In this document: positions 1 through 22,647 of the stretch, piece after piece
Numbering within the stretch: position 1 is the stretch's first letter
How the letters are laid out: each line of letters starts with the position of its first letter
Source: a virus
IMG/VR virus record: IMGVR_UViG_3300006805_000180
Span: 1-22,647 of that record
Length of the DNA: 22,647 bases
Strand: one strand, 5' to 3'
Made by a program: the position numbers and the translations under genes
Notes under the pieces: model-generated
Databases searched by the model: none
What the model saw: only the letters and a program-made list of their open reading frames with translations
Told to the model about the DNA's origin: nothing

Positions 1-43
1 GCGGTTTGAAGCCGCAAAACATCGCTAGTTACAGTATTTTATC

Positions 44-77
44 AAGTACGCACTGTGGTGCGCACCTGTGCGTACTT
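44..77. promoter_or_regulatory. Nested palindrome upstream of the small terminase
   Basis: The 10-bp arms AAGTACGCAC (44-53) and GTGCGTACTT (68-77) are perfect inverse complements. Between them lies a second perfect palindrome, GGTGCGCACC (57-66). The element ends 13 bases before the preferred ATG of the terminase gene, so it could be an operator or a 5' leader hairpin. There is no T-run after it, so it is not a typical terminator. The function is inferred from position only. Confidence 0.45.
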
Positions 78-90
78 CTTTAATGACATA

Positions 91-693
91 ATGGCAAAAG
101 TTGAATATATATCCAAAAGAGCGTTTGCAAAGAAGATACACGTTAGTGAGGGTGCAGTACGTAAGGCCATTGAATCTGGTAAGATTATTAAAGGCTTCAA
201 CGCTCAGCTTAATAAAATAAATTTTGCTATTGCGTATGAAGAATATGGCCAGGCTAAAACCACACCCAAAGCTGGGCACGGTGTGTCGCATGAAAAGGTT
301 GCAGAAAAGCTTTCGAAGCAAAAACCGAACGACGAAGCGCACAATGATGATGAGCTAGAAGATGATCTTGCAGATATGAGTTACATCGAGCTCATTCAAA
401 AGGTAAAAATTAATCCTACACTTTCATACCAGGAAGGTTTGCGCCGCAGCCAGATACTTAAACTGGCCACTGAAAAAATAGAACTTGAAGAAAAACAAAC
501 CAGCCTGGTACGTAAAGCTGAAGTTGACAAAGCAATGTTTGCAATGGGCGATCAACTTAAAAAAGATTTACAAAGCATACCCAGCCGTGCAGTGGCATTG
601 ATAAGATCCGCTGCAACAGAAGTAGAAGCAAATAATATTCTTGCTTTCGAAATAAACCAGGTGCTTGAATCATTTGCAGGGCTTGGATCATAA
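91..693 (+). CDS. terS: Phage terminase small subunit (lambda Nu1-like)
   Basis: This is the DNA-recognition subunit that would load viral DNA onto the large terminase for packaging. The ATG at 91 gives 200 aa. An upstream GTG at 55 would add 12 residues, but it lies inside the palindrome at 44-77. The N-terminus (about residues 5-35) reads as a winged helix-turn-helix (KRAFAKKIHVSEGAVRKAIE), followed by an acidic linker and then a helical segment of the Nu1 type, with YQEGLRRSQILKLATEKIEL leading into LVRKAEVDKAMFAMGDQL. The length is close to Nu1 (181 aa). Its usual partner, the GpA-type large subunit, is about 7.1 kb downstream instead of adjacent. The stop codon TAA at 691-693 is already part of the first cargo site. 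The family call is from pattern recognition. Confidence 0.75.
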   Translation: MAKVEYISKRAFAKKIHVSEGAVRKAIESGKIIKGFNAQLNKINFAIAYEEYGQAKTTPKAGHGVSHEKVAEKLSKQKPNDEAHNDDELEDDLADMSYIELIQKVKINPTLSYQEGLRRSQILKLATEKIELEEKQTSLVRKAEVDKAMFAMGDQLKKDLQSIPSRAVALIRSAATEVEANNILAFEINQVLESFAGLGS

Positions 694-812
694 CAGTAAC
701 GCTTTGTGCAGGTGGTGTTTCAAGGCTCGTCAGCCCAACCCTTGCACCAAAGTTCAATAAAGATAAAATGACGAGCCTTTAACCGTCTGCCCCACTTGCA
801 CAAAGCGTATTG
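691..812. repeat. attC-like two-armed inverted-repeat site A
   Basis: The outer arms are ACGCTTTGTGCAGGTGG (699-715) and CCACTTGCACAAAGCGT (792-808), 17 bp with one mismatch. An inner pair, AAGGCTCGTCA (722-732) and TGACGAGCCTT (769-779), is a perfect 11-bp stem. The site begins in the terminase stop (TAAC) and ends at the GTT of 812-814 that opens the next unit. The spacer is A/T-rich and non-coding. It could fold as a cruciform or an RNA. It resembles integron attC sites in layout, not in exact core sequence. Confidence 0.7.
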
Positions 813-826
813 TTGGTGGCAGTTAA
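812..826. repeat. Left bracket of cargo unit 1
   Basis: GTTGGTGGCAGTTAA is the inverse complement, with 14 of 15 matches, of TTAATTGCCACCAAC at 1081-1095. The two copies enclose only the small gene 839-1084. Confidence 0.75.
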
Positions 827-838
827 ATTTTGAACGAA

Positions 839-1084
839 ATGAGCAGAATATTAACAAGAGAGGAATGCTTAAAATTAGATATTCCTTTATACAACAAGGT
901 AATGGATAAACAATGGGCAATAGATAAAGTTGAAAAGAATTTGTCGGGCGAATTGTCTGTTTGTAAATATTGCCAAAGGAAGTATGTCATTTGTTGTATT
1001 TGTGATACAGCAGAAGAAAGGTGGAATAATATGTTAGAAGAAGTCAAAGCGGTTTCTGAACAACGGAATACTGCGTCCTATTAA
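839..1084 (+). CDS. Small CxxC protein, unknown function (cargo unit 1)
   Basis: This is an 81-aa protein from the ATG at 839. A TTG at 830 in the same frame is possible but less likely. Residues around 45-56 read CKYCQRKYVICCIC, a pair of CxxC-type motifs that suggests a small zinc-binding knuckle. The rest is charged and helical. I do not recognise a family. The gene fills a unit enclosed by a matched inverted repeat (812-826 and 1081-1095), and its stop codon lies inside the right copy. That arrangement supports mobility as a single cassette. A zinc-binding role is inferred only from the cysteines. Confidence 0.6.
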   Translation: MSRILTREECLKLDIPLYNKVMDKQWAIDKVEKNLSGELSVCKYCQRKYVICCICDTAEERWNNMLEEVKAVSEQRNTASY

Positions 1085-1279
1085 TTGCCACCAACGATAG
1101 GGCTTACTGCATGTGGCGGCATTTGAAAATATGATGCTCGGAACTAAAGCTAAATTAAAAAACAAAATTTTAAATATGGAACAAAAGTTAAATAGTAATT
1201 CGTCCGCTGGAGCCGCTGCTGATAGCGATATACAGCCCATTGTTATTCCTTCTGCCGACATTGCAGTAAACCCCATGTT
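1081..1279. repeat. attC-like site B with the right bracket of unit 1
   Basis: TTAATTGCCACCAAC (1081-1095) closes unit 1. The arm GATAGGGCTTACTGCAT (1096-1112) then pairs with ATTGCAGTAAACCCCATG (1260-1277). TTACTGCA/TGCAGTAA is perfect and the flanks are imperfect. The interior (about 1113-1259) is A/T-rich. It contains a module around 1198-1224 that is also found inside site D (about 4057-4084), with GCCGCTGCTGAT / ACCGCTGCTGAT at its core. An open frame crosses the site by chance, so the downstream gene is not extended through it. Confidence 0.65.
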
Positions 1280-1580
1280 GGCTGCTGCCTTGTTAAGCCC
1301 TGCCTTAGAATGGCAATCTGATAGAGGCGGCAGATTTGATTATCCTGCAAACTTTCGTGGTCGTGTACCATTAAAAGTAAAAGTTGCAAAAAAGGTAGAA
1401 CCTGATTTGCCTTGGTTAAAAAAAGAACTTGGCGTAAAAGATGATACTGTTTGTTTAAAAGACAATGAATATTATGTATGGGTCAATAGTTATGGTGCTG
1501 TGTCTGCAATATTGCCTAATGGCGAAAGGCTTGGATTGCTGCCGTCAGAGTTTGATGTTATAGAGTGGCACGAAAGGTAG
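1275..1580 (+). CDS. Hypothetical protein, about 101 aa (cargo unit 2)
   Basis: The unrecognised protein ends in YVWVNSYGAVSAILPNG followed by GLLPSEFDVIEWH. This compact, beta-rich ending looks like a small conserved domain, and I have an impression of having seen similar endings in Bacteroidetes hypothetical proteins. The frame is open from a GTG at 1113, with ATGs at 1131 and 1176. That stretch is the interior of repeat site B, so I prefer the ATG at 1275, which straddles the proposed site core (ATG then TTG). A TTG at 1290 is the alternative. The gene is enclosed by GTTGGCTGCTGCC (1277-1289) and GGTAGCAGCCAAC (1576-1588), inverse complements at 12 of 13 positions. The start is uncertain; the C-terminal reading frame is reliable. 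Confidence 0.55.
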   Translation: MLAAALLSPALEWQSDRGGRFDYPANFRGRVPLKVKVAKKVEPDLPWLKKELGVKDDTVCLKDNEYYVWVNSYGAVSAILPNGERLGLLPSEFDVIEWHER

Positions 1581-1702
1581 CAGCCAACGGTTTGTGGCTT
1601 GGCGATGTTGCCGAAACTGATGCTCAAAAAAGAGATGCAGTTGAAGTTACAATGTCAAGCAAAATTGAAAAACTGAACGGCAATATTGCCAAACCGCTTG
1701 TT
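1576..1702. repeat. attC-like site C with the right bracket of unit 2
   Basis: GGTAGCAGCCAAC (1576-1588) closes unit 2. The left arm CGGTTTG..GGCGATGTTGCCG (1588-1613) pairs with CGGCAATATTGCC..AAACCG (1678-1696). The left arm carries about six extra bases (TGGCTT), which would stay outside the helix. The interior is A/T-rich and encodes nothing visible. The site ends at the GTT of 1700-1702 that opens unit 3. Confidence 0.65.
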
Positions 1703-1714
1703 ATATGTAGTTGT
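1700..1714. repeat. Left bracket of cargo unit 3
   Basis: GTTATATGTAGTTGT is the inverse complement, at 13 of 15 positions, of ACAATTACACATAAC at 4010-4024. The pair encloses the 2.3-kb methyltransferase operon. The A/T-rich stretch 1715-1817 between it and the first gene holds a possible Bacteroidetes-type promoter (TTTG at 1770, TATTTTTTG at 1789), but the spacing is shorter than usual. Confidence 0.7.
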
Positions 1715-1817
1715 GGGTGCTAATTGATGTCGCTGCTATGAAAAACTAAAGTTCGGCTGTATTATTTTTTTTGAAGCTGCGGAGCATGTATTTTTTGTAT
1801 TTAAAAATCTTGAAATT

Positions 1818-2012
1818 ATGGATAATTCAATAGTAAAAATGGGGATGATAAAGTACGATGATGGTAAAGAGTATGGTGCTTTCTTTGAGATAGCAGGAAT
1901 TACTTTTAAATTACAGAAAGTAAAAACAAAACAAGCCGCAACTTTAGAAGTAAAAAGGCTTGTAAAAGCATTTTCTAAATTGCCAAATGTTGAAGAAACA
2001 AAAATGTTATGA
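1818..2012 (+). CDS. Small hypothetical protein upstream of the methyltransferase
   Basis: This 64-aa protein opens with MDNSIVKMGMIKYDDGKEYG and continues with a short beta-rich stretch and a basic helix (about residues 35-55). I recognise no family. It is the first gene of the unit 3 operon and overlaps the methyltransferase by 4 bp (ATGA), so the two are very likely translationally coupled. It may be an accessory or regulator of the methyltransferase, but nothing in the sequence proves this. Confidence 0.6.
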   Translation: MDNSIVKMGMIKYDDGKEYGAFFEIAGITFKLQKVKTKQAATLEVKRLVKAFSKLPNVEETKML

Positions 2013-2800
2013 TAGAATTACATCATGGAGATTGCTTAGAAATAATGCCTTCAATACCTGATAAAAGTATTGATATGATACTTTGTGATTTACCATACGG
2101 AACAACAGCTTGTAAATGGGACACGATAATACCATTTGACAAACTTTGGGAACAATACGAAAGGATTATAAAGCCGAATGGTGCAATAGCTTTATTTAGT
2201 AGTGAGCCTTTCGGCACTTACCTAAGAATAAGCAATATTAAATATTATAGGTATGATATAATTTGGGATAAAGAAACTGGCAATGGTAGCGTTCTTTGCC
2301 ATAAAAGACCATTAAAGCAGTTTGAAAAAATAAATGTTTTTTATAAAAATCAGCCTACTTATAACCCGCAAATGATAGAAAGGGATAAATCAAAGTACAG
2401 AACCCCGAGGGATATGTCCAAATGGAAGGACAGTATAACAGAAACAATGGGTATAAAAAGAATTAATCCAGTAAATTATGATGAAAATAAAAAATACCCA
2501 ACTGATATACTAAAATACAACTGTAAAGAAGCGGAGTTAAACTCAAAATATAAAATACATCCAACTCAAAAGCCCGTTTCATTAATCGGTAATTTAGTAA
2601 TGACTTACACTAATGAGGGTGAAACTGTTTTAGATAATTGTATGGGAAGCGGAACAACAGGGGTTGCTTGCAGAAATCTTAATCGTAATTTTATAGGCAT
2701 TGAAAAAGATGAAAAATATTTTGAAATAGCTAAAAAAAGAATAAATGAAGGAGCCAATAATGTTGAAAGAAACACAGAACAAATTAGCTTGCCATTATAG
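2009..2800 (+). CDS. Site-specific DNA methyltransferase, beta class (N6-adenine/N4-cytosine type)
   Basis: The protein would transfer a methyl group from S-adenosylmethionine to an exocyclic amino group in DNA. It has 263 aa, typical of solitary phage methyltransferases. Motif IV DLPYGT is at residues 27-32, followed by the conserved KWD. HPTQKPV is at 184-190, and the SAM-binding motif VLDNCMGSGTTGVA is at 207-220. The order catalytic motif before SAM motif is the beta class of the N4/N6 methyltransferase family. DLPYG favours adenine as target, but this is not certain. No restriction gene is coupled to it within unit 3, so it looks like an orphan methyltransferase, perhaps shielding phage DNA or acting on packaging or expression. 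It is coupled by overlap to 1818-2012 and 2760-2942. Confidence 0.9.
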   Translation: MIELHHGDCLEIMPSIPDKSIDMILCDLPYGTTACKWDTIIPFDKLWEQYERIIKPNGAIALFSSEPFGTYLRISNIKYYRYDIIWDKETGNGSVLCHKRPLKQFEKINVFYKNQPTYNPQMIERDKSKYRTPRDMSKWKDSITETMGIKRINPVNYDENKKYPTDILKYNCKEAELNSKYKIHPTQKPVSLIGNLVMTYTNEGETVLDNCMGSGTTGVACRNLNRNFIGIEKDEKYFEIAKKRINEGANNVERNTEQISLPL

Positions 2801-2942
2801 CCTTACTGGGAATACTGATTATGATAATGGGTATAATCAAGCAGTTAAAGACTTATGCAAGGTTATTAGAGATGCTATTGATAAACCCGATAATCAGTGG
2901 TACACAAAACAAATTTTAGAACAAATTTTAAAATCTTACTAA
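2760..2942 (+). CDS. Small hypothetical protein
   Basis: The protein has 60 aa from the ATG at 2760. AAGGAG at 2748-2753 is a well-placed ribosome binding site for this start, so I prefer it to the ATG at 2745. The gene begins inside the end of the methyltransferase gene. Residues include TDYDNGYNQAVKDLCKVIRD and a C-terminal helix. No family is recognised; the style fits small phage early genes. Confidence 0.55.
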   Translation: MLKETQNKLACHYSLTGNTDYDNGYNQAVKDLCKVIRDAIDKPDNQWYTKQILEQILKSY

Positions 2943-2944
2943 TT

Positions 2945-3166
2945 ATGAAAACTGCAATGCAATTTTGTTTAGAAAAGTTTATGGTAGAAATATCAAACGA
3001 AGATGCCGCAAAATTAATTGATATGGAAATGGAACAAATAACTAACGCTTTTGTAAATGGTATGATGCAAGGTTGCACTTTGCAATTAAGGGAAGAATTT
3101 AAAATGGTGCAAACACCAGAACAATTTTTTAACGAAAAATATAAAGACAATAAGAAAATGGGATAA
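2945..3166 (+). CDS. Small hypothetical protein, paralogue of 3490-3723
   Basis: The protein has 73 aa from the ATG at 2945, two bases after the preceding stop. It starts MKTAMQ and carries an I(T/V)(N/D)AF..G pattern and a KY-containing tail (EQFFNEKYKDN). The gene at 3490 has the same layout (MKTALQ, QIVDAFEEG, YLNSKYNQND), so the two are probably diverged duplicates. I remember this kind of short protein from Bacteroidetes phages, without a known function. Confidence 0.55.
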   Translation: MKTAMQFCLEKFMVEISNEDAAKLIDMEMEQITNAFVNGMMQGCTLQLREEFKMVQTPEQFFNEKYKDNKKMG

Positions 3167-3179
3167 ATACAGGTGCGAT

Positions 3180-3275
3180 ATGTGCAATGATAGCGGTGCT
3201 GTTACCACTGGTATTTCAGAAGATGGGCATACCATTTATTCTACCTGCCCATGCGTTGATGATGAAAGAAACTAA
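3180..3275 (+). CDS. Possible 31-aa zinc-knuckle microprotein
   Basis: The frame from the ATG at 3180 encodes MCNDSGAVTT followed by a CPC ending, TAA at 3273-3275. The frame is open further upstream and reads KWDKYRCDMCNDSG just before, giving a CxxC..CxC layout typical of small zinc-ribbon proteins. There is no ATG further upstream, so translation could start at 3180 or by coupling from 3166. It fills an otherwise empty gap in a tight operon. Confidence 0.35.
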   Translation: MCNDSGAVTTGISEDGHTIYSTCPCVDDERN

Positions 3276-3280
3276 TAACA

Positions 3281-3493
3281 ATGGAAAATATTTTTACGAT
3301 AAAGAAGGATAAGCTAAGAGAAATAGGCTATGATTTTGCCGAAAGTTTTTATAAATGGTGTAAAAACAATAGGATTAAAATTGAAGAACCGAAAAATAAT
3401 AAGACTGGACTTTATGAAACTTTTGTAGTTCATCTTGATACTACTGAAAAGCAATTTTTATTTTCAAATAAATACTTAAAAACACTAAAATGA
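3281..3493 (+). CDS. Small hypothetical protein
   Basis: This is a 70-aa basic protein (FAESFYKWCKNNRIKIEEPK..LYETFVVHLDTTEKQFLF) with no recognised domain. It lies in the middle of the unit 3 operon and overlaps the next start by 4 bp (ATGA at 3490-3493), which indicates translational coupling. Confidence 0.5.
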   Translation: MENIFTIKKDKLREIGYDFAESFYKWCKNNRIKIEEPKNNKTGLYETFVVHLDTTEKQFLFSNKYLKTLK

Positions 3494-3723
3494 AAACGGC
3501 ATTACAAGAGTTATTATCATGGGCAAAACACCCAATCGAAGATGGTGAAGTTAACCACTCTCTGTATAGTAAGATAAATGAACTGATGGAAAAAGAAAAA
3601 CAGCAAATAGTAGATGCTTTTGAAGAAGGTGTAAATATTGGAATGAACGGAATTTACGCAGAAAGATTTTCTGCTGATATTTATTTAAACTCAAAATATA
3701 ATCAAAATGACAAAGACATTTGA
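3490..3723 (+). CDS. Small hypothetical protein, paralogue of 2945-3166
   Basis: This 77-aa protein has MKTALQELLSWA at the N-terminus, a central MEKEKQQIVDAFEEG helix and YLNSKYNQND near the end. It shares layout with 2945-3166. It overlaps genes on both sides (4 bp and 17 bp). The function is unknown; it belongs to a class of small proteins I have seen in Bacteroidetes phage early operons. Confidence 0.55.
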   Translation: MKTALQELLSWAKHPIEDGEVNHSLYSKINELMEKEKQQIVDAFEEGVNIGMNGIYAERFSADIYLNSKYNQNDKDI

Positions 3724-3946
3724 ATTAAAAGAAAGCCCAATTTTTGATGATGAAGAACTTTATACTTCATTTACAGAATGGCATCAAAGAGTAGCCGAAG
3801 AAAGAATGGTATTAAACGAAATACTGGCTAATGAGCCTGATGGATTTGAAAGGCGCAAGGAATTATACAATAACTTTTACCGTAAAATCGGTATGGTATC
3901 AAACGATATGTTCAATGATTTCACAAATGTTATTAACGAAGACTAA
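3707..3946 (+). CDS. Small hypothetical protein, last gene of unit 3
   Basis: This 79-aa acidic protein (FDDEELYTSFTEWHQRVAEE, then ERRKELYNNFYRKIGMVSND) is probably all-helical, with no recognised family. It overlaps the previous gene by 17 bp and is followed by 63 non-coding bases before the bracket repeat at 4010. Confidence 0.5.
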   Translation: MTKTFELKESPIFDDEELYTSFTEWHQRVAEERMVLNEILANEPDGFERRKELYNNFYRKIGMVSNDMFNDFTNVINED

Positions 3947-4009
3947 TGTGTGGCTTGGGTAAAAAAAATAATACAGTTATCCGTCTGCCCCATAAATGGT
4001 ATGCTGGTA

Positions 4010-4212
4010 ACAATTACACATAACGAACAGGGCTTGCCGAAGTACGGGAATTAGTATTCCGTCCGCCCATGACCGCTGCTGATTAAGAAACTGAAGTTGA
4101 AGATAACAACAAAAAGCTAAATAGAATTACGTCAAGCTGGATATGAAGCACAATAGAATTACCGCAGATGAAGATAACTTGGGTCAGCCCGTATTTTGGC
4201 AAACCCATTGTT
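4010..4212. repeat. attC-like site D with the right bracket of unit 3
   Basis: ACAATTACACATAAC (4010-4024) closes unit 3. The arm GAACAGGGCTTGCCGAAGTACGGG (to 4048) pairs with CCCGTATTTTGGCAAACCCATTG (4188-4210), with two extra bases in the left arm. The interior (4049-4187) is A/T-rich and non-coding and shares the CCGCTGCTGAT module with site B. A stretch at 3979-3994 (TTATCCGTCTGCCCCA) resembles 783-794 in site A and may be a remnant of another copy. Together with the hairpin at 4273-4350, this fills the 453-base gap between 3946 and 4400; I see no gene in it. Confidence 0.7.
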
Positions 4213-4224
4213 ATGCGTTCGCCC
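4210..4224. repeat. Left bracket of cargo unit 4
   Basis: GTTATGCGTTCGCCC is the inverse complement of GGGTGACGCATAAC at 6844-6857 apart from one gap and one mismatch. The pair encloses the restriction-modification gene and its two hairpins. Confidence 0.65.
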
Positions 4225-4272
4225 TTCTGTCCACCGTTGTTTTAATTGTGTGTCGGGGTTTTAGAAGCGTCT

Positions 4273-4350
4273 GCAAGCCGCAAAGGGGTACAAAGGTTAG
4301 CGTTGTGTCAAGGTTTTTGTGTGCCTTTGTACCTGTTTGTCGGCTTTTGC
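4273..4350. repeat. Hairpin element E, constant loop and variable stem, upstream of the RM gene
   Basis: The inner stem is GGTACAAAGG (4287-4296) with CCTTTGTACC (4324-4333), and the outer is GCAAGCCG (4273-4280) with CGGCTTTTGC (4341-4350). The 27-base loop holds TGTGTCAAGGTTTTTGTG. The sequence before it, AGAAGCGTCTGCAAG, and the loop recur at element F (6674-6753), but the stem bases differ while pairing is kept. Confidence 0.7.
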
Positions 4351-4399
4351 GTAGGATGTTTTATCTTGTCGGCATTTCTATTAAAGCAAATAATTTATT

Positions 4400-6664
4400 A
4401 TGGCAAATAAAATTTATAAAGGAGTGAAAAGCGAAACTATAACTGAAAATATATTTAGGGGTTTTTATGGTGCTGATGCTTTCATAGAAAAGTCGGCTAT
4501 TCCAAAAGAATTTGGCTTCCAATCAAAAAACAATACAAACTACAAGGGTTATCCCGACTTCCTTAGAGAAGAAGAAGATTACTTTATTGTTGTCGAAGCT
4601 AAAGCAACTATACATAAGGAAGCCGTGTCAGAAGTAAACCACTACATGACTATTAATAAGATTGAAAAAGATATTATTGGTATTGCTGTGTCTGGGCAAA
4701 ATTTAAGTGATTTGAAGGTAAATTATTTTCTGAAAATTCAAGGTGGTGATGTTGTTTCCTTAAAAACTAACAATGCTTTGCTTGCTTTGTCTAACATTGA
4801 TAGGTTATTTAGGCAAAATAAATATGGCGAAAGTGTTTCTGCTGAAAGTCTAACAACGGTATTAAAAAGCCTAAATAAGACTTTTAATTCAGAAAATAAA
4901 GTAAGGGATGCAGACAGAAGTTTATTTTTTTCAGGTTTAATGATTGCGTTAAAAGATAATACATTTAGAAGCACTTATAAGAATATACAAACTCCTTCCG
5001 AAGATGAAGTAAAGTCAAAAAAGCATACAGTTCTTGAAGCTCATAATTTAAACAATGCGATATTAGAAGCTATTACAAGACAGTTAACTAACAAAATAAA
5101 CAACCTTTCAAAAGAATATAATTGGAGAGATAGATTTTCATTTATAAAAAATATAGATTACTCAATTATTGAGTACAGAAAAATTATTGATACGATTGAA
5201 AAGAATATTTACAAGCCGTTTCAAAATGATGAAAAGCATGATATACTTGGCAAGGCATACAAAATATTTTTGTCAAGAGCAGGGAAAATAGATAATAAGA
5301 ATATTATCTTAACTCCTGACCATATAAAAAGCCTAATGGTTGAATTAGCAAGACTAAATGCTAATGATGTAGTAATTGATACTTGTGCTGGCACAGGTGG
5401 TTTTTTGATGGAAGCAATGGAAGTAATGATTACAAAGGCAAATAATGATGATGCTATTATTCATAACATAAAAGAACACCAACTGTTGGGATTTGAAGTT
5501 GACCCTGTATTGTTTGCCTTAGCTTGTTCAAATATGTTTTTGCATGGCGATGGCAGAACCAATATGTTGTTTAGGAGCAGTTTGTTAAATGATAGACACG
5601 AAAGCATTTTAAACAATAAGGACGCAGAACTTTTAAAGTTCATACAAGATACTAAGCCAACAAAGTGCATAATCAACCCCCCATACGAAAACAACAACTC
5701 AATAAAATTTGTAAAACAGGCGATTGATTACTTAGAGCCTAATGGGAAGCTGGTTATTATTATGCCAACCCCCACTTTGACACAAAACCAAAATGGATTG
5801 GCAAAGGAACTACTTGAAATTGCTAAGTTGGATTTTGTTATAAAGATGCCATTTAAAATCTTTACAGAGCAGAAAAGAACAGTAAATACCTCTGTTTTTG
5901 GTTTTACGAAAACTCCACATCAGCAAAATGATGAAGTGTTGTTTTATCACTTAGAAGATGATGGGTTTGTAAGTATTCAACATAAAGGAAGGGTTGATAA
6001 ATATAAAAAATGGGATGCAATAAGAGCAGATGTTATACATAGTATTTTGAACTCAACAGAGAAAAAAGGTGTTTGCGAAAAACGTAAAATATTCAAAGAT
6101 GGCATTCTGAACTTTGCTGGTGTTCCAAATATTTATAATCGAAAGTCAAAAATGATTTTGATTGATGATTTGTTTATTGTCGAAAAAGGTTCTTTAGCAA
6201 GTGAAAACAGCGAAGAAGGAGAGTATGACTTTGTTACTGGGTCTGAAGATTGGAAACAACATAATTCATACGACTACGATAAAGAAGCTATTGTTTATGT
6301 TGTTTCTGCTGCTGGTTCACTTGGTAGAAGCCATTATGTAAACGGAAAGTTTATTGCAAGTAATTTATGTCTTGTATTAACGCCTAAACAATCTAAAGAC
6401 TACCCAATTAATTTAAAGTTTTATAACACCTACTTTAATTATATAAGAAAACAAATGGTTTCAGACTTGGCTGATGGTACTTCAAAACTTACAATTAGAG
6501 AAGACGATTTGAAAGCATATTATATTGATTATATTGATATAAAGTATCAAAATGACTTTGCAAAGAACCATATTGAACCGTTCCAAAAAAAGCAACATCA
6601 ATTAAAGCAGGAAATTGAAAAGTTGTCAAATACAATAAATAGTAGCTTAGTAAAGATACTTTGA
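4400..6664 (+). CDS. Type IIG-like restriction-modification enzyme (nuclease, N6-adenine methylase, target recognition)
   Basis: This 754-aa protein seems to carry a whole restriction-modification system. The N-terminal about 100 residues hold a PD-(D/E)XK nuclease motif: GYPD (D53) followed by VVEAKA (E66, K68). The central part is an HsdM-like methylase: LTPDHI at 304-309, SAM motif DTCAGTGGF at 327-335, and catalytic NPPY at 426-429. The last about 180 residues resemble an HsdS-type target recognition domain (EKGSLASENSEEGEYDFVTG, with TSKLTIREDDL later). The order nuclease-methylase-specificity matches type IIG enzymes. The gene is A/T-rich compared with the head genes, sits alone in cargo unit 4, and lies between hairpins E and F. 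A probable role is exclusion of competing DNA. Activity as a nuclease is inferred from motifs only. Confidence 0.85.
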   Translation: MANKIYKGVKSETITENIFRGFYGADAFIEKSAIPKEFGFQSKNNTNYKGYPDFLREEEDYFIVVEAKATIHKEAVSEVNHYMTINKIEKDIIGIAVSGQNLSDLKVNYFLKIQGGDVVSLKTNNALLALSNIDRLFRQNKYGESVSAESLTTVLKSLNKTFNSENKVRDADRSLFFSGLMIALKDNTFRSTYKNIQTPSEDEVKSKKHTVLEAHNLNNAILEAITRQLTNKINNLSKEYNWRDRFSFIKNIDYSIIEYRKIIDTIEKNIYKPFQNDEKHDILGKAYKIFLSRAGKIDNKNIILTPDHIKSLMVELARLNANDVVIDTCAGTGGFLMEAMEVMITKANNDDAIIHNIKEHQLLGFEVDPVLFALACSNMFLHGDGRTNMLFRSSLLNDRHESILNNKDAELLKFIQDTKPTKCIINPPYENNNSIKFVKQAIDYLEPNGKLVIIMPTPTLTQNQNGLAKELLEIAKLDFVIKMPFKIFTEQKRTVNTSVFGFTKTPHQQNDEVLFYHLEDDGFVSIQHKGRVDKYKKWDAIRADVIHSILNSTEKKGVCEKRKIFKDGILNFAGVPNIYNRKSKMILIDDLFIVEKGSLASENSEEGEYDFVTGSEDWKQHNSYDYDKEAIVYVVSAAGSLGRSHYVNGKFIASNLCLVLTPKQSKDYPINLKFYNTYFNYIRKQMVSDLADGTSKLTIREDDLKAYYIDYIDIKYQNDFAKNHIEPFQKKQHQLKQEIEKLSNTINSSLVKIL

Positions 6665-6673
6665 TGGTGTCCT

Positions 6674-6762
6674 AAGAAGCGTATGCAAGATTTTAGCTCT
6701 TTTGCAGGTTTGGTCTGTGTCAAGGTTTTGTGAGCCTGCAAATGTGCTAAAATGTGTGTCGG
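6674..6762. repeat. Hairpin element F, downstream of the RM gene
   Basis: This is a second copy of element E. AGAAGCGTATGCAAG leads into stem arms ATTTTAGC (6690-6697) and TTTGCAGG (6701-6708), which pair with CCTGCAAA (6735-6742) and GCTAAAAT (6746-6753). The loop holds TGTGTCAAGGTTTTGTG, nearly identical to E, while the stem sequence is different but still complementary. It starts 10 bases after the RM stop codon and could also act in transcript 3'-end formation, though no T-run follows. Confidence 0.7.
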
Positions 6763-6843
6763 CAAAGAAGCAGAGCTATTAAAACAAATTTGAAATACTG
6801 TCGCCCAAAATGTCAACTGTCTGCCGATTAAAGGACTGTCGCA

Positions 6844-6857
6844 GGGTGACGCATAAC
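6844..6857. repeat. Right bracket of cargo unit 4, array end
   Basis: GGGTGACGCATAAC matches the inverse complement of 4210-4224. Unlike after units 1-3, no second site arm follows before the recombinase gene at 6898. The array therefore appears to end in a half or truncated site. Confidence 0.55.
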
Positions 6858-6897
6858 ATCTTTCTTCCCGCACTCTTTATAATAATCAATAACTTAT

Positions 6898-7782
6898 ATG
6901 TCACGTAAACAAGAACTACTTAACCAATTTAAAAAGGAACTGCAACTTCGTAACTATGCCCCAAACAGCATAGATACCTATTCCGGTTACCTGGGCCAGT
7001 TCTTAGATGCAATGCAGGGCGCACCAAAGCCACTACCACTGCAGCATATAAAAGATTTTTTATTAAAGATCACCAATATGAATACCAGGGCAATGTATGT
7101 AATCAGCATCCGTAATTTTTACAACTTCGTTTTAAAAACACCGCTGAATCTTGATGATATTCCATACCCGCGCAAAACCAACTATCTGCCCCAAATACTC
7201 AGCATACAGGAAGTTCAGCGTTTAATAAATGGAACGCAGAATATTAAACACCGGGCAATGCTGCAGATAATCTATAGTTGCGGATTGCGGGTAAGCGAAG
7301 TGCCCGAAATTGAATGCAATAAAACCATTTGCCATATAGATAGCGATCGTAAAACATTGCTGGTAAAAGGTGCCAAAGGTTTTAAAGATCGTTACGTACC
7401 ACTTCCATTGCCAACCATTAACCTTTTAAAAACTTATCGTAAAACAGATCCTGTGGGCAAGTGGTTGTTCATGGGGCAAAACCAGCAAAAATATACGGTA
7501 CGCAGTATTCAGCAGGTGTTTCACCAGGCAAAGCAACGGGCAGGTATTTATAAAAAAGTAACTACGCATTCGCTTCGGCATAGCAGGGCTACTCATTTAT
7601 GCGAAGGTGGTATGGATATTTACGAGCTTAAGATATTCCTGGGCCATAATAATATAAAAACAACCGAAATTTATTTGCACCTCAGTAAATCAGCATTGGT
7701 AAGCAAAACCGAAATGGCAGATTTAATAATCGCACAGGCACTGGCAAATACTGAAATGCGGCTCGAATTTGCTCATGCATAA
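6898..7782 (+). CDS. Tyrosine recombinase / integrase
   Basis: This 294-aa site-specific recombinase would cut and rejoin DNA through a 3'-phosphotyrosine. A SAM-like core-binding domain (about residues 4-85) precedes the catalytic domain. The expected residues are visible: R131 in CGLRVSE, a lysine in VKGAKGFKDRYVPL (K160 or K163), H224 and R227 in THSLRH, H250 in LGHNN, and nucleophile Y259 in TEIYLHL. The overall form is XerC/D-like. I do not see the extra helix insertion that marks integron integrases before the HxxR box. The protein could integrate the phage, resolve dimers or act on the adjacent cassette sites; the sequence does not decide. Its position between the small and large terminase genes is unusual. 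Confidence 0.9.
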   Translation: MSRKQELLNQFKKELQLRNYAPNSIDTYSGYLGQFLDAMQGAPKPLPLQHIKDFLLKITNMNTRAMYVISIRNFYNFVLKTPLNLDDIPYPRKTNYLPQILSIQEVQRLINGTQNIKHRAMLQIIYSCGLRVSEVPEIECNKTICHIDSDRKTLLVKGAKGFKDRYVPLPLPTINLLKTYRKTDPVGKWLFMGQNQQKYTVRSIQQVFHQAKQRAGIYKKVTTHSLRHSRATHLCEGGMDIYELKIFLGHNNIKTTEIYLHLSKSALVSKTEMADLIIAQALANTEMRLEFAHA

Positions 7783-7789
7783 TCCAGCA

Positions 7790-7843
7790 GCACAAGAGTG
7801 CAACGCAACCACAGCTTAATTAATAACAAAACCTCTGGCTCAT
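7790..7843. repeat. Dispersed intergenic repeat, copy 1 (reverse orientation)
   Basis: GCACAAGAGTGCAACGCAAC followed by CACAGCTTAATTAATAAC and CTGGCTCAT matches the inverse of the copy at 9738-9825 (GAGCCA..ATGAATGAAGCTTTGTTGCGTCGCAC). It fills the gap before the large terminase. Confidence 0.6.
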
Positions 7844-9737: not shown

Positions 9738-9825
9738 CCGTCATTTCGAAGCAGGCACGACTGAGAAATCTTTTGAGCCAAACAATAGATCATGAATGAA
9801 GCTTTGTTGCGTCGCACACTTGTAC
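9738..9825. repeat. Dispersed intergenic repeat, copy 2 (most complete)
   Basis: The copy runs from CCGTCATTTCGAAGCAGGCA through GACTGAGAAATCT and GAGCCA to TTGCGTCGCACACTTGTAC. The first half recurs at 12673 and 15548, and the second half at 7790, 12721-12782, 16244, 19260 and 22622. It lies between the terminase gene and a small A/T-rich gene and encodes nothing visible. Confidence 0.75.
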
Positions 9826-12672: not shown

Positions 12673-12782
12673 CCGTCATTTCGAAGGAGGCACGACTGAG
12701 AAATCTCATGAGCCCAACAGTTGCGTAAATCGCAACATCCTTGCACAGTTTATCCCGAACTTGTTTCGGGGCACACTTGTAC
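12673..12782. repeat. Dispersed intergenic repeat, copy 3, with embedded dyad and hairpin
   Basis: It starts CCGTCATTTCGAAGGAGGCA and GACTGAGAAATCT as in copy 2 and ends GCACACTTGTAC. The middle is replaced by the dyad TTGCGTAAATCGCAA (12721-12735) and a hairpin with arms CCCGAA (12754-12759) and TTCGGG (12765-12770). It fills the gap after the portal gene. Confidence 0.7.
12721..12735. repeat. TTGCG-N5-CGCAA dyad, copy 3
   Basis: TTGCGTAAATCGCAA has perfect 5-bp arms around TAAAT. It lies inside the dispersed repeat at 12673-12782, at the place where other copies read TTGCGTCGCAC. Confidence 0.6.
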
Positions 12783-16231: not shown

Positions 16232-16243
16232 TAACGTTCCAAC

Positions 16244-16300
16244 CGTACAAGTGTGCGACGCAACAGCAGCCTCATAGCATTCATTACGCCTGGCTAAAAA
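16244..16300. repeat. Dispersed intergenic repeat, copy 4 (reverse orientation)
   Basis: GTACAAGTGTGCGACGCAAC (from 16245), then CATTCATTACGCCTGGCTAAAAA, aligns with the inverse of 9773-9825. The palindrome core is GTGCG-A-CGCAA (16253-16263). Confidence 0.65.
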
Positions 16301-19228: not shown

Positions 19229-19257
19229 GCCGTGCTATGGCCTTCCATAGCATCGGC
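19229..19257. other. Stable hairpin between tube and chaperone genes
   Basis: GCCG+TGCTATGG pairs with CCATAGCA+T+CGGC around a CCTT loop, 12 bp with one bulge. No T-run follows, so an mRNA-stability or processing element is more likely than a terminator. It is followed at once by a dispersed repeat fragment. Confidence 0.6.
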
Positions 19258-19259
19258 TC

Positions 19260-19282
19260 TTGCGTCGCACACTTGAACGTTC
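19260..19282. repeat. Dispersed intergenic repeat, right-half fragment
   Basis: TTGCGTCGCACACTTGAACG followed by TTC matches 9807-9829 (TTGCGTCGCACACTTGTACG) with one difference. It lies upstream of the chaperone gene. Confidence 0.65.
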
Positions 19283-22612: not shown

Positions 22613-22621
22613 AGTTATACA

Positions 22622-22641
22622 GTACAAGAGTGCGACGCAAC
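22622..22641. repeat. Dispersed intergenic repeat, right-half fragment at the window end
   Basis: GTACAAGAGTGCGACGCAAC is the inverse of TTGCGTCGCAC..TTGTAC at 9807-9825, with one difference. It may continue beyond the window. Confidence 0.6.
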
Positions 22642-22647
22642 GAAAGC

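Follow-up and report, generated by a model that had tools for sequence, protein, structure and literature searches.

The window, by which we mean the whole stretch of DNA that was analyzed, is a 22,647-base virus record. ORF prediction and family searches place phage structural genes after a tyrosine recombinase gene, and the window is a phage fragment. Its portal protein is a firm family match; the genes that we take to be the small and large terminase are named provisionally from gene order (no NCBIfam match for the large, no Pfam match for the small). An integron-like array with its own XerA-like recombinase (692-6857 and 6898-7782) lies between these two terminase genes, and its cassette genes read in the same direction as the phage structural genes. 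Repeats like GTACAAGTGTGCGACGCAAC occur in both orientations among the structural genes (7788-7815, 9804-9825, 12761-12782, 16243-16270, 19257-19278, and 22620-22647), and a similar word is also present in Chitinophagaceae chromosomes (L017, at about 2485, and L067). Two 47-base copies, 91% identical, occupy intergenic gaps at 9738-9784 and 12673-12719.

The array comprises four cassettes between the small terminase and the tyrosine recombinase, separated by imperfect palindromes. Its features, all on the plus strand, are the following:

692..824, +, attC-like site at the small-terminase end of the array (earlier detector; missed by the later one)
1093..1281, +, attC-like site between cassettes 1 and 2 (two attC detectors)
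1586..1704, +, attC-like site between cassettes 2 and 3 (two attC detectors)
4022..4214, +, attC-like site between cassettes 3 and 4 (two attC detectors)
4210..6857, +, cassette 4, whole, from GTTATGCGT (4210-4218) to its complement ACGCATAAC (6849-6857); L016 has the same frame around another gene
4258..4362, +, element E, attC-proximal (type A) cassette-end hairpin (R1 match, 49.8 bits; fold)
4262..4277, +, direct repeat box TAGAAGCGTCTGCAAG, to the left of E; the L016 cassette ceases to match directly after it
4400..6664, +, cargo: 754-aa N-6 adenine methylase/type IIG-like restriction-modification protein (PF02384, 5.9e-26; PADLOC REase_MTase_IIG, 6e-41)
6670..6771, +, element F, distal (type B) cassette-end hairpin (R1 match, 94.3 bits; fold)
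6673..6689, +, direct repeat box TAAGAAGCGTATGCAAG, to the left of F, where the match to the L016 and L017 cassettes begins
6898..7782, +, XerA/IntI-like tyrosine recombinase, lacking the IntI-specific domain and the N-terminal domain of its chromosomal relatives

The window cassettes are bounded by complementary end words (GTTGGTGGCA/TGCCACCAAC, GTTGGCTGCT/AGCAGCCAAC, GTTATATGTA/TACACATAAC, and GTTATGCGT/ACGCATAAC). In all four, R' is complementary to its own R'' in 9 to 10 of 10 letters, against 4 to 8 for other combinations. The attC-like palindromes stand in tandem, four in the window and seven in L005, a relative array with the same layout whose recombinase is 74% identical to that of the window and which shares with it a conserved stretch 5' of the recombinase gene. 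Single attC-like sites are near detector background, but their series and the R'/R'' matches are not. The first attC detector was too strict and the second close to background for single sites; the last, which was insensitive and misclassed F via a false site, placed a site near 31 of 90 hairpins versus 79 of 1,800 random places. As far as can be predicted from sequence, the layout of the array is that of integron cassettes.

Elements E and F were first singled out in a sequence-only reading as two hairpins with an invariant loop and differing, yet paired, stems. All letters quoted there for both elements are present in the sequence. In E, 4287-4296 pairs with 4324-4333 around a loop at 4304-4321, and an outer stem absent from that reading joins 4275-4280 to 4341-4346; in F, with its loop at 6716-6732, the stems are 6690-6697 with 6746-6753 and 6701-6708 with 6735-6742. 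The differing but paired stems are borne out, both elements being more stable than shuffles when folded as single-stranded DNA (E, z of -4.7, 0 of 200 shuffles equally stable; F, z of -3.1, 2 of 200). E had been placed at 4273-4350; its shared flank begins about 10 bases to the left of 4273. The window contains two copies, and no more, of the loop word TGTGTCAAGGTTTT. Invariance of the loop holds between E, F, and close relatives, and gives way across the wider family to a conserved pattern rather than a fixed sequence.

A strict flank-plus-loop pattern, run on a genome collection, retrieved three stretches, all from Chitinophagaceae MAGs (two are contigs of one MAG), and each has an F-like hairpin near one cassette end, an E-like one near the other, and different cargo between. 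F is nearly identical to the copies in L016 and L017, and 40 of 244 Chitinophagaceae genomes were hit when the L016 copy served as a BLAST query, with at most three candidates scored per genome. An alignment of 44 sequences (A2), seeded with F-like copies and including both E and F, gave the covariance model R1; in A2, 95.2% of 692 cells are paired, with two-sided change in 13 of 16 pairs. E matches R1 with an E-value of 1.6e-9 in one search and 3e-11 in another, both rough because calibration used little sequence. The covariance-model search of Bacteroidetes genomes that had been proposed earlier, run with R1, detected the family in 48 of 296 genomes sampled from across Bacteroidota, a set taken as such because the centre genome is a Chitinophagaceae MAG. 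R1 also matched 26 of 26 genomes that were re-examined owing to earlier hits and are therefore not independent. In the window, positions 1-7000 hold no third hairpin besides E, F, and F's own reverse strand (R1, E < 0.1), and the three cassettes other than cassette 4 are without hairpins.

A larger alignment fitted to the model (A3; 76 R1 matches, 75 distinct) shows 95.0% of 1,128 cells paired and two-sided changes in all 16 pairs, where cells count sequences and not events. Change is two-sided in 272 cells versus one-sided in 3 (0 of 500 shuffles), G-U occurs in just five cells, and pairing drops to 28 to 48% in slid controls. Pairing is poorest at columns 24/125, where 21 of 71 sequences have no pair. 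On its cargo side, hairpin A is followed by conserved sequence for about 19 bases (quartiles 18 to 21, in 47 cassette pairs). E and F are thus two members of one hairpin family with a conserved loop, conserved flanks, and compensating stems. Two copies alone prove little; the compensation between E and F is real because covariation is family-wide. The proposal that compensatory change reflects selection for the folded form is accordingly supported by 76 aligned members, and homologues with broken stems or unconserved loops, named at the outset as the contrary outcome, were not seen at this level of pairing.

Rfam gave no match at gathering for the window and one unrelated weak match for six relatives. 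Viral contigs yielded no matches to the flank-plus-loop pattern, and the single match of the loop word TGTGTCAAGGTTTTTGTG in them lies within a coding gene and is attributed to chance. R1 hairpins are present in three further viral contigs (L101, 3951-4046; L106, 1136-1234; L107, 2521-2618). No such hairpin was found in the gene flanks read in L014, another phage with a restriction-gene homologue (58%), nor an R1 match in the terminase relatives covered by that search, L010 to L013. The idea of three boxes, in which a flank word recurs in the loop and behind the hairpin, rose only moderately above shuffles.

Across the family, hairpin pairs are typically in direct orientation, 2 to 10 kb apart, just inside cassette ends. 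When a match is defined as 8 or more bases preceding A that are exactly complementary to a word following B, the flanking R'/R'' words are complementary in 29 of 37 hairpin pairs versus 117 of 1,332 mismatched combinations; four of the 29 matches are low-complexity (L017, L081, L084, and L087), and among the 37 pairs, those of L100 and L069 each extend over several cassettes, and the second one in L015 is doubtful. The earlier placement of E just inside the left bracket and of F just after the gene is therefore right, and general. The identity of E and F as paired cassette-end hairpins is well supported. Both lie inside R'/R'' and lack R/L boxes with GTT-AAC ends and the crossover point of attC. 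The suggestion of a recombination site read as single-stranded DNA thus fits the context in part: the sites proper are the attC-like hairpins outside, and E and F are additional to them.

The window cassette is almost the same as that of L016 in two stretches, one running from the attC-like half site up to the box preceding E and the other from the box preceding F through the cassette end. Between the boxes, the stems of hairpin E are different, and the proteins share only 28% identity across 329 aligned residues. This one clear comparison shows that hairpin E and the gene were replaced inside an otherwise nearly identical frame. No cassette with hairpins and without cargo was seen.

Cargo is about 1 to 9.5 kb long and changes between cassettes, with restriction genes frequent among the cargo examined. 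In protein sets picked by size or context rather than randomly, PADLOC matched 7 of 10 large cargo proteins, mostly as restriction enzymes or methylases, and Pfam assigned 5 of 10 other cargo proteins to restriction-modification; the rest of these ten include an RNA-repair ligase, a HerA-type ATPase, and two transport proteins. Hairpin order and strand are unchanged whatever the cargo direction. Cargo is coded mostly on the strand opposite to the hairpin reading in 30 of 36 pairs and on the same strand in 6 (the second L015 pair was dropped; L016 is counted as opposite-strand though its 854-aa gene is same-strand, and both L057 and L082 lack a 100-aa ORF), the clear same-strand cases being the window, L016, L017, and L093. 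Since the cargo strand varies, the hairpins keep step with the cassette and not with the gene. Most small cassettes go without hairpins (L095 has six attC-like sites and one hairpin), which indicates that they are unneeded for cassette movement.

Relatives of the window recombinase, at 33 to 45% identity, were fetched from 10 genomes, and the hairpin is also present in 9 of the 11 fetched recombinase regions, being absent from L097 and L098. An extra N-terminal stretch is found in nine compared relatives and in L090 and is absent from both phage proteins. Array-side chromosomal recombinases carrying it are L089 to L096, L098, and L099, with seemingly three copies, by eye, in L090. Compared with solved structures, this stretch gave no convincing match, and HARP, a candidate for the domain, was rejected as too weak (1 of 9 members, E of 0.026). 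The relative arrays L004 and L005 have no hairpins, and the L005 recombinase likewise lacks the N-terminal domain. A profile of the stretch (A5) matched 54 of the same 296 genomes; 22 genomes have both hairpin and domain versus 8.8 expected (p of 9e-7, in a test that ignores kinship), while 26 of 48 hairpin genomes are without a domain match and 32 of 54 domain genomes without a hairpin. None of the recombinases compared with IntI profiles or structures has the IntI-specific domain. In alignment with V. cholerae IntI (2a3v), about 54 residues (189-242) are left versus 11 in L096, this region is unmatched in the window recombinase too, and the recombinases fall below the TIGR02249 cut-off.

Taken together, the most likely function of the hairpins would be to signal, at the DNA level, the recombination of cassettes or the exchange of cargo. 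We favor a signal at this level because changes are almost solely Watson-Crick, orientation is bound to the cassette, and the cargo borders lie at the hairpin boxes. The scarcity of G-U suits DNA, or a fold required on both strands. The full reading, in which E and F are end hairpins of a large integron-like cassette and serve as a folded-DNA signal for recombination or cargo exchange, is held tentatively, with nearly even confidence. A cassette would then read attC, R', hairpin A (E), cargo, hairpin B (F), and R'', the last complementary to its own R', and the adjoining XerA/IntI-like tyrosine recombinase would run the array. The hairpins would act as folded DNA, single-stranded or cruciform, recognized by the shape of the stem, by the internal loop, and by conserved words in the loop or flank. 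They may aid the marking, folding, or exchange of cargo in cassettes of well above the usual size. A candidate for reading them in chromosomes is the additional N-terminal domain that the recombinases have there. The phage appears to have gained its defence cassette from a Chitinophagaceae-type source, given that its recombinase lacks the N-terminal domain and its three other cassettes lack hairpins.

The main rival is transcriptional insulation, because genes end close to the downstream hairpin in both orientations (6664 and F at 6670 in the window; 6288 and the F-like hairpin at 6283 in L016). Here the hairpins would stop or slow transcription from either direction at both ends of a cassette with its own promoter. 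They do frame multi-gene, multi-kilobase units, and a hairpin working from both strands would likewise avoid G-U. A hairpin close behind a stop codon also recalls intrinsic terminators. However, the stems of E and F lack a T run, a search for terminator-like sites gave none at either element on either strand (its sole site is at 5380), and a plain terminator needs no conserved loop, internal loop, or flank words. We consider insulation unlikely.

IS200/IS605 and REP elements carry subterminal hairpins in direct orientation that are read as single strands. E and F are likewise subterminal and direct, short direct-repeat boxes mark the cargo borders, and hairpin E and the gene were replaced between two boxes, all of which would fit a nested transposable unit of this kind, hairpin-cargo-hairpin, riding in the cassette. 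Such a unit is improbable, however: its ends are the cassette ends, independent jumps are not evident with 29 of 37 pairs inside matching cassette ends, and no cargo-free copy exists among those seen. The window cassette holds one large ORF (N6_Mtase), the methylase gene, and no transposase; Y1 HUH transposases were looked for in that cassette.

A structured RNA, raised in the sequence-only reading alongside a DNA site, would lie in untranslated regions of cassette genes and could, for example, control restriction-enzyme expression. Strong covariation and conserved loops are its usual mark, and scarce G-U also fits an RNA hairpin working from either strand. It is now less favored, and to us quite improbable: orientation and order track the cassette whatever the cargo direction, G-U is almost lacking, and two copies stand at opposite gene ends around unrelated kinds of cargo. 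Passive, functionless repeats hitch-hiking at cassette ends are highly improbable, for even though common descent of copies inflates covariation counts, two-sided change in every pair and 95% pairing across the phylum require selection on the fold.

The preferred reading, a DNA-level cassette signal, shares with integron cassettes and their attC sites (IntI) the tandem cassettes, palindromic sites, R'/R'' complementarity, array-adjoining recombinase, and folded-DNA logic. It differs in the extra hairpins within the cassette, the size of the cargo, and the recombinases, which lack the IntI-specific domain and, in chromosomes, have an extra N-terminal one. Qi et al. (2023; PMC9892861), in the available text, report integrons/CALINs in phages with methyltransferase cargo, including a Polaribacter phage. 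Cassettes and methyltransferase cargo in phage genomes are thus common to both cases; that text describes no cassette-end hairpins, and the array here lies between terminase genes with its own XerA-like recombinase. Hairpins of this kind are likewise not described in the available portions of PMC8138268, PMC8618304, and PMC9668308, and no description was found in the open-access papers searched.

The available text of PMC9668308 uses the IntI-specific additional domain as an integron criterion, and arrays such as these may be widely missed because integron searches depend on a domain that their recombinases do not have. More speculatively, and in our estimate distinctly unlikely, Bacteroidota may harbor an unrecognized integron-like system, operated by recombinases that lack the IntI-specific domain, in which large defence cassettes have their own dedicated DNA hairpin pair that lets cargo swap in a standing frame, as a route by which cassettes are made. 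The origin of gene cassettes is a long-standing question, and cargo of unrelated kinds, framed on both sides by a conserved pair of structures, would make a cassette-building step directly testable.
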